Assembly (NCBI GenBank): GCA_013821825.1
Contig: PNJK01000004.1
Coordinates: 35,293 to 99,292 of the forward strand
DNA: 64,000 nt
Direction of reading: 5' to 3'
Source: Rhodobacter sp.
GTDB taxonomy: Bacteria > Pseudomonadota > Alphaproteobacteria > Rhodobacterales > Rhodobacteraceae
A program made the position numbers and the translations under genes. Below the pieces are notes generated by a model. That model did not search any database. It saw only the letters and a program-made list of their open reading frames with translations, and was not told where the DNA came from. Positions within the stretch are counted from its first letter, which is position 1. The number at the start of each line of letters is the position of its first letter. Positions 5,384-14,470 of this stretch are shown one piece after another.

Positions 5384-5944
5384 TCATGCAGCGGGTCACC
5401 TGTTGAAAATCTTGGGGGCCTGTCCGAATCACCCTTGCTGTCCGCAATCCGGATTGGCGTCATTGGTAGCCTCAAATCGGAACCTTTCGCCGGTTGCGAA
5501 GTCTTTAGCGAAGAATTCACAGTTTCCGAGTCACGTATAATGCCTGTGGACTATTTGCCGTCCATTCCTGCCTCTGCCTGCTTCCTCGGGCTTTGGCGGC
5601 AGGCTCAGCCCCCCCGTCCGCGGCGACGGAATCTGGCAAGAATAAGGCATTTACGGCAGTTTCGCCATGATCTTGGCCGCAAAAGCGCACCCAATCCGAC
5701 TCCCGCCAGACTCTCGCTTTGCGCCTTGGGGTGCAACCTTAACGTGTAAGTCAATGACAGATAACCATTTTTGCGATTCCAGGGTTTTTTGGTCGTGATT
5801 GCGAGGCGATTTTTCTGATGTTAGTTTTGGCGGGATGCTGATCGGCACAGGGGATGGTCGTCGATGCGCGTTTGAGTATGTGTCCGTCTGCCGGGTCTTA
5901 GCTTTTGGGACAGCTGCCGGTGTCCATTTGTGGAGGCTTTGTGA
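5384..5944. other. Gene-free leader region upstream of exoY-type gene
   Basis: About 560 bp with no convincing coding frame. From about 5735 to 5850 the sequence becomes AT-richer with several T-tracts, as expected of a promoter/regulatory zone for the downstream priming transferase. A GGAGG ribosome site sits at 5932-5936 just before the ATG at 5945. I could not identify a named operator or riboswitch. Confidence 0.45.
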
Positions 5945-6637
5945 ATGGTTGAACGACTTAAGTTTGGCCCCTCAGATTTGACCCGACCGCTGCTTCACAA
6001 GAGAGGCCGTTGGGACCAGCCGAATCGTGACCGCCCCTATCGTCAGGGGCTGAAGCGCAGTCTGGACGTCCTGTTTGTCCTTCTGGCGCTGCCGATCGTA
6101 GTGCCCACCATCATCATCGTTGCGGCGATGATCGCAGCACACGGGCATTCCCCGTTCTATTGTCAGAACCGGGTGGGGCAGGGTGGCCGGATCTTCACCA
6201 TGTGGAAGCTGCGGACGATGGTGCCGGATGCGGACAAGCGGCTGAAGGAATACCTGGCGCGCAATGAGGAGGCGCGGCGTGAATGGGAAGCCTTTCAGAA
6301 GCTGAAGAGCGATCCGCGCATCACGCAGCTGGGGCAGTTCCTGCGCAAGTCATCGCTGGATGAACTGCCGCAGCTCTGGAATGTGCTGAAAGGAGAAATG
6401 AGCCTTGTCGGCCCGCGCCCGATGATGCCCGATCAAAGCGAACTTTATCCGGGACATGCTTACTATTCCCTCCGCCCCGGAATGACCGGGTTGTGGCAGG
6501 TGTCGGACCGGAATTCTTCGACTTTCGTGCAGCGCGCGGAATTCGATGATATCTACGAGCGCACGTTGTCGTTTGCGACAGATGTCAAAGTGCTGGTTGC
6601 AACCGTTGGCGTCGTATTCCGCTGCACAGGAAAATGA
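5945..6637 (+). CDS. exoY: Exopolysaccharide priming sugar transferase (ExoY/WbaP type)
   Basis: A 230-aa polyisoprenyl-phosphate hexose-1-phosphate transferase that puts the first sugar phosphate on undecaprenyl phosphate. It has one N-terminal membrane helix (about residues 40-65, [19 protein letters not shown]), then the catalytic block: [38 protein letters not shown] and VGPRP, ending [15 protein letters not shown]. The short form without extra N-terminal helices matches ExoY rather than full WbaP. GGAGG precedes the ATG. Its 3' end overlaps, on the opposite strand, the C-terminal codons of a small membrane protein gene. Confidence 0.93.
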
Positions 6638-6828
6638 GGCTTTGACGGCGCCGTGCGTGGTCTCAGCCGGTGATAGAGACTGATAGACGCAAGTCCGAAC
6701 AGCATCACCAAGGTGCCCGTGATCGGGTAGGCCAGCAGAACGACCCAAAAGGGCGAGGACATGGTGACAAGCGCCAAGGAAACCATGGCGCCTGAGACAA
6801 TCGCGGTGAGAAGCAGCCCGACGACCAT
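6553..6828 (-). CDS. Small two-helix membrane protein, copy A
   Basis: A protein of about 91 aa with two predicted helices (residues 3-24 and 27-50) and a hydrophilic tail ending VANDNVRS. The ORF track begins at a TTG (6852); the ATG at 6828 is better because GAGGAAA lies 6-7 bases before it. The central motif PFWVVLLAYPITG is nearly repeated in the neighbouring small protein (PFWASVVAYPVTG), so the two are paralogues. Its last 85 bp overlap the 3' end of the exoY-type gene on the other strand. Function unknown; the exopolysaccharide setting suggests a role there. Confidence 0.65.
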   Translation of the reverse strand: MVVGLLLTAIVSGAMVSLALVTMSSPFWVVLLAYPITGTLVMLFGLASISLYHRLRPRTAPSKPHFPVQRNTTPTVATSTLTSVANDNVRS

Positions 6829-7024
6829 CAAGTTTTCCTCAATCGTGACCAACTTGGGTACGGTTGGTCAGTACAATTACCCTAGAGTCTATGGATTCGC
6901 CGATCAAGGCGAAGGACCGGTTTGTCGGGGCGACATGGCGGAACTCGGCCTAGATTACCCTGTGACTCTTAACGGATTCTTGCCGAAATTCGGACTTTTC
7001 CTGTGTTCACCGCTGTTGCGGCTG

Positions 7025-7237
7025 TCACAAGGCGGTCGAGGAAACCTCTTGAGGCGCGCTTTTCCGAACCGTGCGCAGTGTTTCCGAGCTGAGTACGACG
7101 GCGGCCGCCAGAAGACCGATGGCCCCGGTGACGGGATAGGCAACGACAGAAGCCCAGAACGGAAGATCAAGCAGTTGAGCTGCACCAACTCCGGCAGCAC
7201 CACAGAAGATCGAGATGATTACAGTGACCCCCAGCAT
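7025..7237 (-). CDS. Small two-helix membrane protein, copy B
   Basis: A protein of about 70 aa starting MLGVTVIISIFCG with AAAGGA upstream; the track start at 7315 is an upstream TTG and its extra 26 residues look non-coding. Two helices (about residues 2-20 and 25-47) flank PFWASVVAYPVTG, shared with the protein encoded at 6553-6828. The tail is short and charged (RTVRKSAPQEVSS). Both copies run on the minus strand with a gap of about 200 bp. Function is unknown. Confidence 0.6.
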   Translation of the reverse strand: MLGVTVIISIFCGAAGVGAAQLLDLPFWASVVAYPVTGAIGLLAAAVVLSSETLRTVRKSAPQEVSSTAL

Positions 7238-7330
7238 TTTTGCCCGATCCTTTCGTTGACCTTTGTTACAGCGTCCGGCCCGGATATGGCGAAAATGGGG
7301 CGGGCTTGGGATCAATCTGCGTCATCAATC

Positions 7331-8230
7331 GAGGCCGCTGTTTGGCGTTGGTCGGCAAACGCTTTGCGGGTCGCTCTCATTCCTCCTGCCAGCGCGGCAG
7401 CGGAAGGCCGATCGTGCGCCTTTGTGCCGGTCTTTTCGCTGCGGGTCAACGGGATGCTACGCTTTGCCGCGGACCAGGACAGCTGCCCGATTGCCGACAC
7501 TTCGGTCATCACTTCTGCCGGTCGTCTGGAGATCGGCACCGCATCCAAGCTGGTGGAACCGGATGTGCGGGCCGGGATATGGTTGCAGGGGAACGCGACA
7601 CCGGCCTGACGCGCGATCCTTTGTTGCTGTCGCGCGGCGTCAACTCGCACAGGTCCGCCGAGCCCCCCGTTTCTAAGCCTGGGCATGTGATGTTCATGCC
7701 CAGGGATGCGGTTGATGTCCGTTGTGCCGCTTTCGATCAGCTTCGCCGCCCTGACAGATCGGATGAGGCGTCCAAGCTGGTTGCGCTGCCAGAAATCTCG
7801 TCTGCCAGCAACATCAAGGGTCGCTACCCGCTTTGCCTGCGCATGACTGCCATTGAAAGGCAGGATGCATGGGGTATGGGTGTTGGAGATTCTGTCTATG
7901 GTTCGCCCGGCTGGGGTGTGGGGAGCGATGGCGCCGATGGTCCCCAGAACGCGGCGCCGGTCGTCAACGACGATGATGCCTTTGCCTATGTCGATCAGCC
8001 GGTGATCAGCGACTCCGTGACCCTTGCCTCTGACCCGGACGACGGCGCGATATGGGGGCGAGGGCGCGGCCGATCCGCGCTTTGGCGACGTGCCGGCGCT
8101 GACCGACGGGCGACTTCTTTATCGCGCGAAACTGGGGTATGCCGACGCAGACCTATTCTGCTTTTGGGCTGCGGGCGGCGCGGGCGACTTTGCGACTGCC
8201 AAAGTCCGGATCGGTGTGGTTCAACCGTGA
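7331..8230 (+). pseudogene. Remnant of a large secreted G8 / beta-helix / cadherin-like protein gene
   Basis: Several pieces of one protein type lie in order but in shifting frames. Frame 2 carries a G8-domain-like stretch (SLRVNGMLRFAADQDS, then AGRLEIGT) ending at a stop at 7609. Frame 1 continues with GHVMFMPRDAVDVRCAAFDQL and SNIKGRYPL, which resemble the beta-helix part that follows G8 in secreted calcium-binding proteins, then a cadherin-like opening (APVVNDDDAFAYVDQPV). Frame 2 resumes with the end of such a domain (DGRLLYRAKLGYADADLF, FATAKVRIGVV). An intact gene would be several times longer, so internal deletion plus frameshifts are implied. The assignment is from family memory only. 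Confidence 0.6.
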
Positions 8231-8351
8231 CTTTCCCTGTATCAGTTCACCGAGGCCCAGGCAGATCCGTGTGAAAGTTCATCTGCAACCGCCTTCATTT
8301 CGTCGCTTCGCTTTTGCAAGATAGGCGATCGAAGACCCCGGGAGTTCCTGT

Positions 8352-10148
8352 GTGATCGAAGTCTATCGAAAGATTTTCCTCTTGCTGGATCGACGGGAGC
8401 GTCGGCAGTTCTGGCAGCTTACCGCCGTCATGATCCTTGTGGCCCTGATGGAGGTGGTTGGCATAACTGCCGTCCTGATGCTGTTGAACGTGCTCGCCAA
8501 ACCTGAACTCATTCACGATAACAGCGTGCTGAGCACGCTTTTTTCCGGCCTGGAATTTTCCAGCGATTTCCGTTTTTTGGTCGGACTTGCGGTATTTGTC
8601 CTTATGGTCGTCATGTTCGGGCTGGCAATCAAGGCGGGGGGGACCTACGCCGCGATCCGCTATGCTGCCATGCGTGGGTTCACGGTGTCGAGCCGCCTGC
8701 TTGGGGCATATCTCAACCAACCCTATGTCTGGTTCCTTGACAGGAACAGTTCCGAGATTGGCAAGAACGTTCTGGTCGAGGTGGACGGTCTGGTTTCCCG
8801 TGTCCTGGCGCCGGCACTTCGCCTGATCGCCAGTGCGCTGATAGTTCTGGTTATCGTCGGCTTGCTGATGTTCATCGATCCCATGGTCACGCTGCTGTCT
8901 GCGGGCCTTCTGGGCGCGAGCTACGCCGCGGTGTACCTCATGCTTCGCGAGAAGCTCCACCATGTCGGCCAGGAAATGGTGCGGGCTCTTGGCGAGCGCT
9001 TCCGCACGGCGCAGGAGGCGATGGGCGGCATCAAGGATGTCAAGCTTCTGGGTCTGGAAGACAACTATGTCGCCGTCTACCGGAAGGCCGCCCAGAAATC
9101 GGCGCGATCCCTGGCGGCAATCGGAGTTATTTCGGAACTTCCGCGCTTTGCGCTTGAGGCGATCACCTTCGGCACACTGCTTGCTTTGATCCTGCTGCTG
9201 CTTCTGAACAGCGGCGGGGAGATCGCTGAAATTGTGCCGGTCCTTGGCGTCTTTGCCTTTTCCGTGATGCGTCTCTTGCCTGCTTTGCAGCAGATCTATC
9301 ACGCGCTTGCATCGATCCGCGGAGGGCGGGCGGTGCTGGAGACTGTCGTCAACGACTATGTCTCGGCCCAATCCTTGGCCGACGTTACACGGCCGACCGC
9401 CGAGCCGCTGCGGATGGACAGACAACTGGACCTGTCCGGCATCGGATTCTCTTATGCCAAGACAGCGCGTCCGGCGTTGCAAGCGCTGGATATGAAGATC
9501 AATGCCCGAACCACCGTCGGGATCGTTGGTGGCACCGGAGCCGGGAAAACGACACTGGTCGATCTGATCCTTGGTCTTCTGACCCCGGATGAAGGGGTGA
9601 TTTCCGCCGACGGAACCGCCGTCACTCCGGCAAACCTGCGCGCATGGCAGAAGTCGCTCGGATACGTGCCGCAAACGATCTTTCTGACGGACGATACGAT
9701 CGCGGCAAATATCGCTTTCGGCCTTCCAGCCGACCAGATCGATATGGCTGCGGTCGAGCGTGCGGCCCGCACTGCGGCCTTGCATGATTTCGTTTCGACC
9801 GACCTGCCACAGGGTTATGGCACCATCGTGGGCGAGCGGGGAGTGCGCCTTTCGGGGGGCCAGCGGCAACGGATCGGGATCGCGCGCGCGCTTTACCGCG
9901 ACCCCACGCTTCTGATCATGGACGAGGCAACGTCCGCCCTCGACAACATCACCGAGCGTGTCGTGATGGAGGCCGTGCAGAATATCCGCGCCGACAAGAC
10001 CATCATCCTGATTGCGCACCGGCTTACCACGGTCCGCACCTGCGACACGATTTTCTTTCTGGAACAGGGCCGCGTCGTTGCGCAAGGCACGTATGACGAG
10101 CTGGTCAGCGGCAACGAAACATTCCGTAAAATGGCAATCGGGGTCTGA
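8352..10148 (+). CDS. ABC transporter, fused permease and ATPase (MsbA/PglK-like flippase)
   Basis: A 598-aa half-transporter: six membrane helices in residues 15-330, then a nucleotide-binding domain with Walker A GGTGAGKTT, Q-loop YVPQTIF, signature LSGGQRQRIGIARAL, Walker B LLIMDEATSALD and switch His in LIAHRLTT. Starts at GTG 8352 with GGGAG upstream. In an exopolysaccharide locus lacking a visible Wzx, a PglK-like role flipping lipid-linked oligosaccharide is likely; export of lipid or another substrate is possible. It is convergent with the polymerase-like gene. Confidence 0.9.
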   Translation: MIEVYRKIFLLLDRRERRQFWQLTAVMILVALMEVVGITAVLMLLNVLAKPELIHDNSVLSTLFSGLEFSSDFRFLVGLAVFVLMVVMFGLAIKAGGTYAAIRYAAMRGFTVSSRLLGAYLNQPYVWFLDRNSSEIGKNVLVEVDGLVSRVLAPALRLIASALIVLVIVGLLMFIDPMVTLLSAGLLGASYAAVYLMLREKLHHVGQEMVRALGERFRTAQEAMGGIKDVKLLGLEDNYVAVYRKAAQKSARSLAAIGVISELPRFALEAITFGTLLALILLLLLNSGGEIAEIVPVLGVFAFSVMRLLPALQQIYHALASIRGGRAVLETVVNDYVSAQSLADVTRPTAEPLRMDRQLDLSGIGFSYAKTARPALQALDMKINARTTVGIVGGTGAGKTTLVDLILGLLTPDEGVISADGTAVTPANLRAWQKSLGYVPQTIFLTDDTIAANIAFGLPADQIDMAAVERAARTAALHDFVSTDLPQGYGTIVGERGVRLSGGQRQRIGIARALYRDPTLLIMDEATSALDNITERVVMEAVQNIRADKTIILIAHRLTTVRTCDTIFFLEQGRVVAQGTYDELVSGNETFRKMAIGV

Positions 10149-12061: not shown

Positions 12062-14065
12062 TCAGTCCAGGGCCAGGCTGGTCCCATCTCCGAAGGTAAT
12101 GACTTCGAAGTTGACCAGCCAGGTGTCCTGATCGGGGCCGGTTACGCGGATTCCCTTGCCTTCGGGCTCGATGCCATAATCCTCCCTTGGGCCGAGCAAG
12201 ACATAGGTATCGGTGCCGAGCCCGCCATTCAGGCCGTCGCGCCCGGAGCTTTCAACGAAGGTGTCGTCGCCGCCGAGGCCTGCGAGATAGTCTTCCTCGT
12301 CAGTCCCGACGATCCGGTCGGCGCCCTCGGTTACGCTGGCGGTGATCCCGTGCAGATATTGCGGACCGCCGCCCTCGCCCCACCACGACTTGCCCAGCGT
12401 CGACATTGCGGTCAGGAAACGCGATCGAGGCGTGCTGTCGCCGGGATAGGCGAAGAGGCCCCACGATCCCCAGCGCGACGGCGCGCCCATTTCGACAAAT
12501 TGCATGAAGGGCCCGTCACCGATGTCACGCCAGCCGTCCCAAAGCTGACTGTAAAGCGCGCCCATCTCAGAGCTGCGAACGAAGTCTTCCATGATTTTCA
12601 ACAGAGCTTCCGCTTCTTCCTCCGACATGCCTTCGACACCGAAACTGTGGTGCATGTGCTGGCCGCCTTCGTAGGCGACAAAGCGCAGGCCGAGCCGGTT
12701 TGCGATCTGCCGCTGGGTGGAGAGCATCTCCAGCACATCCGGCACGGTGTCCACATTGGTCGCTCGTTGCGAGACTGTCTCATAGAGCCAGGCAAAGGCA
12801 TTCGCGGGGGACTCTGCAAACTTTCCAACCAATTCGGCGCGCAGCGCCGGATCGCTGGCAATCGACCCGCCAAAGTAAAGCGTACCGGCCACTTCCTCGA
12901 AAACCGTCTCTGGCGGGGTGAAAGCGTCCGGGTCGCGACTCTCCCAGATGCGGGAGGTGAGCTGCAGATCCGTCAGCCATGCATTGCCCGATTGGGTCCC
13001 AAGAACATTCACAAGCCGTGCGGGGGCTTCGCTCTTGTAGACGTCCTCCCAGATCAGCGCCAATTCGGTTGCCGCCTTCGTCTGGTAGGCGAAGATGGAT
13101 TCCCAATCATCGGCAATCTCTTCACCCCATTCAGCGATGGCCATTTCACGCAGCCACTGGAATTGCCCGAAGGATCCGTTCCAGTGTTCGTTGGAGTATT
13201 CGACATGCGCTTTCAGGCGCGGATCAAGTTGATCGCGCACATAGCTTGCAAAGCGTCGGTTGTAGTCTTCATCCGCCTTGTGCGGCATCGTGAACCAGGG
13301 GTCGATACCTGCCTCGTTGGCAAGGCGGACCATAAGTTCCACCGGGACCCCCTTGCCAGACCATGTCGCGTCGTCGGGCTTGGGGCGATCGTTCCAGACG
13401 GTCTGTTCGGAATTGTTCGTTTCCATCCAGTCCATGAAGCGCAATTCTCGTGCATCCGTCACCACGGCCAGCCAGTCGGGATCGAATACGGCGCCGGCTT
13501 CGGCAAGGGCGATGTGATCGGCGCGCAAAAGGGACATCTGGCGGATTGGATCGTCTGGATTGATCCGGGTGATGTTCAGCCAGAAGGGGCCGCCCTCGGC
13601 GTTGTCAAAAATGATGCGCCCGGGCGCGGAACTGACTACGGTTGCGTTTCCGCCCATCTCCAGCGTGGCGGAGCCGGCATGGGTGAGGACATAGCGGCCA
13701 GCGCGACTTTTGGCGCCAAAAGGTGAATCCCACGCCCAGATCGTACGTATGCCTTTCATTCCCGGAGGAATACGGATGGGGTAGCCATTCAAATCCAGAT
13801 GGCCGCCAGCAGCGAGTTCTGAATTCGAAAGGGTTTCCCAATCATCGTTGGCATAGGCAAAGAAGGGTCGCATCATGCGTGCCCGGTCCAGCAGCGGCAA
13901 AGCCGTTGACCAGTCGCTGATGGAAGTAAGGCCATAGGAGATTACGGGATCCGACACGCCCAATGCTTCGGCGGCAGAACTTGAGGGCAGAGCCAGCGCA
14001 ATGGCCAGGACAAAGCAGGCTGGCGGCGGGGCGCGGGGCGACAGGGTTGGAAAACCGTTCGACAT
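12062..14065 (-). CDS. Secreted glycoside hydrolase-like protein with RTX calcium-binding tail
   Basis: About 667 aa. A hydrophobic N-terminal signal (CFVLAIALALPSSSAAEA) precedes a barrel-like domain. YSNEHWNG near residue 292 has the Asn-Glu pair expected of the acid/base in clan GH-A enzymes, and VAYEGGQH near residue 465 fits the nucleophile Glu. Near the C-terminus GLGGDDTF and LNGGLGTDTY are RTX-type calcium repeats, which suits type I secretion. It probably trims or releases the exopolysaccharide made by this locus. Three ATGs (14095, 14080, 14065) compete; a 15-bp tandem duplication creates the last two. The GH family is unassigned by me. Confidence 0.72.
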   Translation of the reverse strand: MSNGFPTLSPRAPPPACFVLAIALALPSSSAAEALGVSDPVISYGLTSISDWSTALPLLDRARMMRPFFAYANDDWETLSNSELAAGGHLDLNGYPIRIPPGMKGIRTIWAWDSPFGAKSRAGRYVLTHAGSATLEMGGNATVVSSAPGRIIFDNAEGGPFWLNITRINPDDPIRQMSLLRADHIALAEAGAVFDPDWLAVVTDARELRFMDWMETNNSEQTVWNDRPKPDDATWSGKGVPVELMVRLANEAGIDPWFTMPHKADEDYNRRFASYVRDQLDPRLKAHVEYSNEHWNGSFGQFQWLREMAIAEWGEEIADDWESIFAYQTKAATELALIWEDVYKSEAPARLVNVLGTQSGNAWLTDLQLTSRIWESRDPDAFTPPETVFEEVAGTLYFGGSIASDPALRAELVGKFAESPANAFAWLYETVSQRATNVDTVPDVLEMLSTQRQIANRLGLRFVAYEGGQHMHHSFGVEGMSEEEAEALLKIMEDFVRSSEMGALYSQLWDGWRDIGDGPFMQFVEMGAPSRWGSWGLFAYPGDSTPRSRFLTAMSTLGKSWWGEGGGPQYLHGITASVTEGADRIVGTDEEDYLAGLGGDDTFVESSGRDGLNGGLGTDTYVLLGPREDYGIEPEGKGIRVTGPDQDTWLVNFEVITFGDGTSLALD

Positions 14066-14470
14066 CTGGAAGAGCCTCATGTGGAAAAGCCTCATGGGCG
14101 CCCGGAGGCGGGTCTCGTCCTTGAAGTCTAGCAGGCGGGAATTCGGCACGTCCAGTCACGGTAGCGTCTTCTTGCCGGATCGATCGTCAATTTCGGGCGG
14201 CATGACGGGCGGCGACATCTCTGGCGCGAAGGTGACCGCCTGAACCCCGCAGCAGCATTTGAACAACGAATGGACCTCGCAATGGGTTCGGCCTTTGGGG
14301 CGGCATTGCCGTCCTTTTGACCGGGGTGCTCAGGTCATCCTGGTCCCGCGCCCCGGGGGCCCAACGATCTTTGAGGATCTGGTGCGGGTGGTCTGACCCC
14401 AGTTCCGCAAGTCGGCATGTCCGGTTTTTTCCGGACCGGCTATCAATGAGCGAAACGGCGGGGGGTGATG
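14066..14470. other. Gene-free stretch upstream of transposase remnant
   Basis: About 400 bp between the hydrolase gene start and the transposase remnant. The long reverse ORF across 14187-14831 looks like a shadow of the remnant. A small inverted repeat (TCCGG-T6-CCGGA) sits near 14418. No gene is recognised; the promoter of the hydrolase gene should lie near 14100-14200. Confidence 0.35.

Follow-up and report, generated by a model that had tools for sequence, protein, structure and literature searches.

Decayed remains of a G8/CEMIP-type secreted protein gene in a Rhodobacter exopolysaccharide locus, most probably an old pseudogene

The human proteins TMEM2 (CEMIP2) and CEMIP are distant kin of the gene family considered here. 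The structural study of TMEM2 describes the G8 domain as built into one uninterrupted right-handed beta-helix and reports no hyaluronidase activity (PMC10206443), whereas others report an intrinsic activity (PMC10474455); TMEM2's own catalysis is disputed. Bacteria carry relatives of these proteins: a profile of 13 of them matches human TMEM2 (8c6i, 'cell surface hyaluronidase') with E=4.6e-7, in an alignment that covers the beta-helix core and runs through GRYPVHFH, and the cut-off of the CEMIP/TMEM2 beta-helix family (PF24606; 27.3) is exceeded by the protein of one genome of the genus studied here, G006 (40.4 bits), and by four further relatives (31-38 bits). In the open papers that we searched, we found no description of G8/CEMIP genes as a repeated component of Rhodobacterales polysaccharide clusters.

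The window, by which we mean the whole stretch of 64,000 nucleotides that was analysed, belongs to contig C4 of a 4.0-Mb draft genome, and its DNA was read at positions 5800-10000 with all frames listed. Within it, a pseudogene remnant occupies 7286-8230 of the plus strand, from an ATG at 7286 to the ancestral stop TGA at 8228-8230. A DNA search of relatives returned one genome of the same genus, G006, whose matches are collinear over the whole of this region and which carries an intact gene (L028:8978-11797, minus strand, 940 codons) at the corresponding place, the common gene order being ExoY-type transferase, s1, s2, G8 gene or remnant, and ABC transporter. The features of the window, with the comparison to G006, are as follows.

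5945..6637, plus strand: ExoY-type bacterial sugar transferase, intact (Pfam Bac_transf E=3e-59); 70% identical to its G006 counterpart
6553..6852, minus strand: small membrane ORF s1, kept in the ExoY-ABC interval of G006 and of most genus members
7025..7315, minus strand: small membrane ORF s2, whose listed 5' end overlaps the pseudogene start
7286..7609, plus strand: 5' remnant in ancestral frame 2, with start codon, signal peptide (MAKMGRAWDQ...PASAAAEG) and partial G8; matches the start of the G006 protein and its G8
7406..7429, plus strand: junction of loss 1, net -426 nt by anchor-to-anchor lengths and by DNA alignment, edges approximate; linker and first part of G8 gone
7430..7579, plus strand: G8 block, 26/50 residues identical
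7580..7596, plus strand: frameshift 1 (net -1), frame 2 to frame 1; 17 nt against 18 nt
7597..7650, plus strand: end of the G8 block (DPLLLSRGV-SH), frame 1, 12/18 identical
7651..7677, plus strand: junction of loss 2, net -342 nt by anchor-to-anchor lengths
7678..7917, plus strand: CEMIP-type beta-helix core block, frame 1, 47/80 identical
7819..7851, plus strand: decayed GRYxxHxH motif, reading GRYPLCLRMTA where intact homologues have GRYxxHxHxxG
7918..7947, plus strand: junction of loss 3, net -1110 nt by anchor-to-anchor lengths; remainder of the beta-helix gone
7948..8071, plus strand: start of the cadherin-like/Big_9 domain (Cadherin_4 E=0.06, sub-threshold) and frameshift 2 (net +1), frame 1 to frame 2; 124 nt against 123 nt
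8072..8230, plus strand: C-terminal half of the cadherin-like/Big_9 domain, frame 2, to the ancestral stop TGA; 26/52 identical, 60 bits
8352..10148, plus strand: PglK-like ABC transporter of flippase type, intact (Pfam ABC_tran/ABC_membrane); 75% identical

The sequence-only reading had proposed the remains of a large secreted G8/beta-helix/cadherin protein gene inside the exopolysaccharide locus, and the collinear matches to the intact, syntenic gene of G006 bear this out. All the peptides it quoted, in the order of frames 2, 1, 2, are present: frame 2 at 7286-7609 holds LRVNGMLRFAADQDS followed by GRLEIGT, frame 1 at about 7591-8050 holds GHVMFMPRDAVDVR, SNIKGRYPL and NDDDAFAYVDQPV in that order, and frame 2 at about 8050-8230 holds LLYRAKLGYADADLF. 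Of the extent it gave, 7331-8230, the end is right and the start is not, the conserved signal peptide placing the beginning at 7286. Its description of the gene as deleted and frameshifted could be mapped base by base against G006: the 945 nt of the remnant correspond to 2,823 nt, about one third being kept, and what is missing amounts to about 1.9 of 2.8 kb in three losses, with a -1 and a +1 frameshift besides. The frame-2 portion at the 5' end meets a TGA just past frameshift 1. What is left comprises the signal peptide, a partial G8, the first part of the beta-helix and the cadherin-like tail.

Aligned with the G006 protein, in which G8 (E=1e-19), CEMIP_beta-hel (E=4e-10) and Big_9/cadherin-like (E=1e-18) domains are recognized, the remnant matches at four places in collinear order, with scores of 94, 60, 60 and 31 bits. 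The highest, at 59% identity, is the beta-helix core over residues 381-467 of the G006 protein; the G8 domain aligns at 49% identity (60 bits), and the signal peptide accounts for the fourth match, over residues 1-38. The window copy thus shares with the G006 gene its slot, its start, its signal peptide and its domain order, with 49-59% identity in the surviving blocks, and differs from it in being frameshifted and reduced to a fraction of an intact 940-codon gene. Because Pfam gave sub-threshold matches on the fragments (G8 E=0.0025), intact relatives were needed to settle the identity. The curated cut-off of G8 (PF10162) lies at 22.9 bits, which the remnant does not reach at 18.2 bits, compared with 70.9 for the intact G006 orthologue; since the domain is partial, we file the remnant as derived from a G8 protein and not as a G8 domain. 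In the GRYxxHxH motif, judged from the alignments of intact homologues, both invariant histidines are lost. The earlier reading had suggested a translated search and a comparison with a relative in which the gene between ExoY-type transferase and ABC transporter is intact; the search found similarity to G8/beta-helix/cadherin proteins, and G006 is such a relative.

A protein search of plasmid records returned 'G8 domain-containing' and 'PA14 domain-containing' proteins of Ruegeria, Antarctobacter, Leisingera and Salipiger, and no close DNA relatives of the region were found in plasmids. Rfam yielded no structured RNA in the remnant region. A 344-aa ORF in frame 1 (7240-8274) was considered as a new gene and rejected, as it follows the ancestral frame in its middle and a non-ancestral one at both ends, and shows no constraint.

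In a tree of the ABC protein, whose best NCBIfam match is PglK (E=4.5e-95, below that model's cut-off), window and G006 group together with 99/99 support. The spacer between ExoY and ABC measures 3.6 kb in G006, 1.7 kb in the window and about 0.95-1.07 kb, with no G8 trace, in about fourteen other genus members with adjacent ExoY and ABC genes; the G8 gene may have been gained before the split of window and G006 or lost repeatedly elsewhere. A G8 gene immediately preceding the ABC gene also occurs in Paracoccus sp. DMF-8. In that record (L026:7452-11787) both genes are frameshifted, which suggests assembly errors rather than two pseudogenes.

Two further observations concern the surroundings. 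The ORFs s1 and s2 are related to each other and lie antisense between ExoY and ABC, with s1-like sequence kept in nearly all genus members that have the ExoY-ABC pair. Further along, a 695-aa protein encoded at 12062-14149 on the minus strand has a weak calcium-binding stretch of RTX type and is kin to the 'calcium-binding protein' of Roseobacter, Thioclava and Paracoccus; its gene is not in G006, and only one other genus genome (G003) has a match.

Whether the remnant is still under selection can be read from its substitutions, which we assigned to branches by parsimony with distant outgroups (about 57% identity), so that the counts are undercounts. On the window branch, changes fall at codon positions 1, 2 and 3 in the numbers 33/31/31, compared with 12/11/26 on the G006 branch, and amino-acid changes in the G8 gene number 41 against 8. 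The flanking genes evolve alike in both lineages (40/27/107 against 49/30/105 for the ABC transporter, 14/12/50 against 18/16/35 for ExoY, the G006 branch given second), and the loss of constraint is thus confined to the G8 gene of the window branch. Where the intact homologues have invariant columns, 20 of 68 are changed in the window, the two histidines of the GRYxxHxH motif among them, against a maximum of 5 for an intact homologue. From the even spread of the changes over codon positions we infer that the gene has probably been dead during the greater part of its history after parting from G006. The contrast between neutral substitution here and constrained flanks rules out a sequencing artefact as the sole cause. 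An AT-biased decay was considered and set aside, the base changes on the window branch (42 GC>AT, 32 AT>GC) being unremarkable. Nor is the lack of stop codons a telling sign of function: about 200 aligned codons of the ancestral frame contain 0 nonsense codons where about 2 are expected, with P(0)=0.12.

One feature that fits simple decay less readily is the phase of the losses. At net 426, 342 and 1110 nt, each of the three is a multiple of three, and the -1 and +1 frameshifts cancel; three in-frame losses would arise by chance about 1 time in 27. The pattern may be luck, or it may reflect in-frame shrinkage before abandonment, and together with the missing nonsense codons it would be compatible with an interval during which a shortened protein was maintained. 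The fuller form of this idea, in which the gene shrank in frame to a mini-protein of signal peptide, partial G8, beta-helix core and cadherin-like tail, which persisted for some time and either was given up only afterwards or is even now translated through the compensating frameshifts, strikes us as improbable, and the substitution pattern argues against a present function.

We give little credence to the proposal that the remnant is a living, shortened secreted protein of about 314 codons, its frameshifts being sequencing errors or read through. It would account for the in-frame losses and the opposed frameshifts, for an ancestral frame that is free of stop codons where aligned and for the retained signal peptide and start codon, and both frameshift regions do contain a run of G. 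A protein under selection would, however, have to be reconciled with substitutions that are even over codon positions next to constrained neighbours and with the loss of 20 of the 68 invariant residues; G8 has lost a part and the beta-helix the greater part, leaving neither domain complete, and a chance of about 1 in 27 for the phase is not extreme. That the broken gene was made by an assembly or contamination artefact is very improbable indeed: the genome is a draft of 234 contigs with an estimated contamination of 4.95%, but the flanking genes are intact, the locus is syntenic with G006 of the same genus, and assembly errors do not produce many neutral substitutions together with three losses. 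Chance resemblance of the peptides to G8 and cadherin fragments, for which the Pfam scores below the curated cut-offs might be cited, is ruled out for practical purposes by the comparison of 94, 60 and 60 collinear bits with a best of 28 bits among 1000 dinucleotide-preserving shuffles set against the same G006 protein, and by the intact gene in the same slot of that genome.

The account that we prefer, with a probability of about 0.95 for the whole, is that of an old pseudogene which decayed after the split from G006 and whose living relatives most likely act on polysaccharide. The ancestor was a secreted protein with signal peptide, G8, right-handed beta-helix of CEMIP/TMEM2 type and C-terminal cadherin-like/Big_9 domain, its gene lying, as the intact G006 gene shows, within the exopolysaccharide locus, with the ExoY-type priming transferase on one side and the ABC transporter on the other. 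After the two lineages parted, the gene underwent the three losses of about 1.9 kb in all, the two frameshifts and the neutral substitutions. A search of its own genome found no other G8 copy that might have replaced it, and the window organism thus presumably makes its polymer without this protein.

The connection to polysaccharide extends beyond this locus. Among 17 G8/CEMIP loci read, 13-14 have polysaccharide genes beside them (a raw count), such as glycosyltransferases, Wzy, WecG, UDP-glucose dehydrogenase, exosortase and the like; L063, L065 and L072 lack such neighbours, and L070 is doubtful. Rhodobacterales polysaccharide clusters with G8/CEMIP genes, often with PA14, are L026, L028, L061, L062, L064, L066-L069, L071 and L110-L112. 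Given their position, domains, secretion signal and distant kinship to the TMEM2/CEMIP hyaluronidases, the intact relatives most likely act on the extracellular polysaccharide of their cluster, by binding or by processing it, and their position suggests the cell's own polymer as the target, hyaluronan as a substrate not being implied.

We consider this linkage of the family to exopolysaccharide loci more interesting than the pseudogene itself. The remnant nevertheless offers a clean natural knock-out, in that G006 keeps an intact gene which its sister at the locus has lost, so that the gene's role in the polymer is testable by comparing the two species. The bacterial relatives could also be tractable models for the CEMIP/TMEM2 family, with its disputed catalytic mechanism.

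Set beside ordinary bacterial pseudogenes, the remnant shows the same deletions and frameshifts, the same disappearance of codon-position bias and the same decay of a conserved motif, and departs from them in the in-frame length of all three large losses and in two frameshifts that offset each other, which may be chance; as a pseudogene it is ordinary, but its family has been little studied. Within that family, further comparisons are Rhodobacterales proteins of PA14-G8-CEMIP_beta-hel-Big_9 architecture in polysaccharide loci, for example in Paracoccus sp. DMF-8 (L026) and Ruegeria conchae (WP_260026581.1). The PA14-G8 proteins resemble the G006 protein in their G8 domain, CEMIP-type beta-helix core and invariant GRYxxHxH, and in standing among glycosyltransferases. 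The N-terminal PA14 domains of several of these relatives are absent from the G006 protein and, judging by its start, from the ancestor of the window gene. With respect to human TMEM2 (CEMIP2) and CEMIP, the bacterial relatives differ in having a cadherin-like tail and in showing no counterpart match to TMEM2's reported lectin-like domains, and agree in the CEMIP_beta-hel domain, the beta-helix core and a motif of the GRYPVHFH type.
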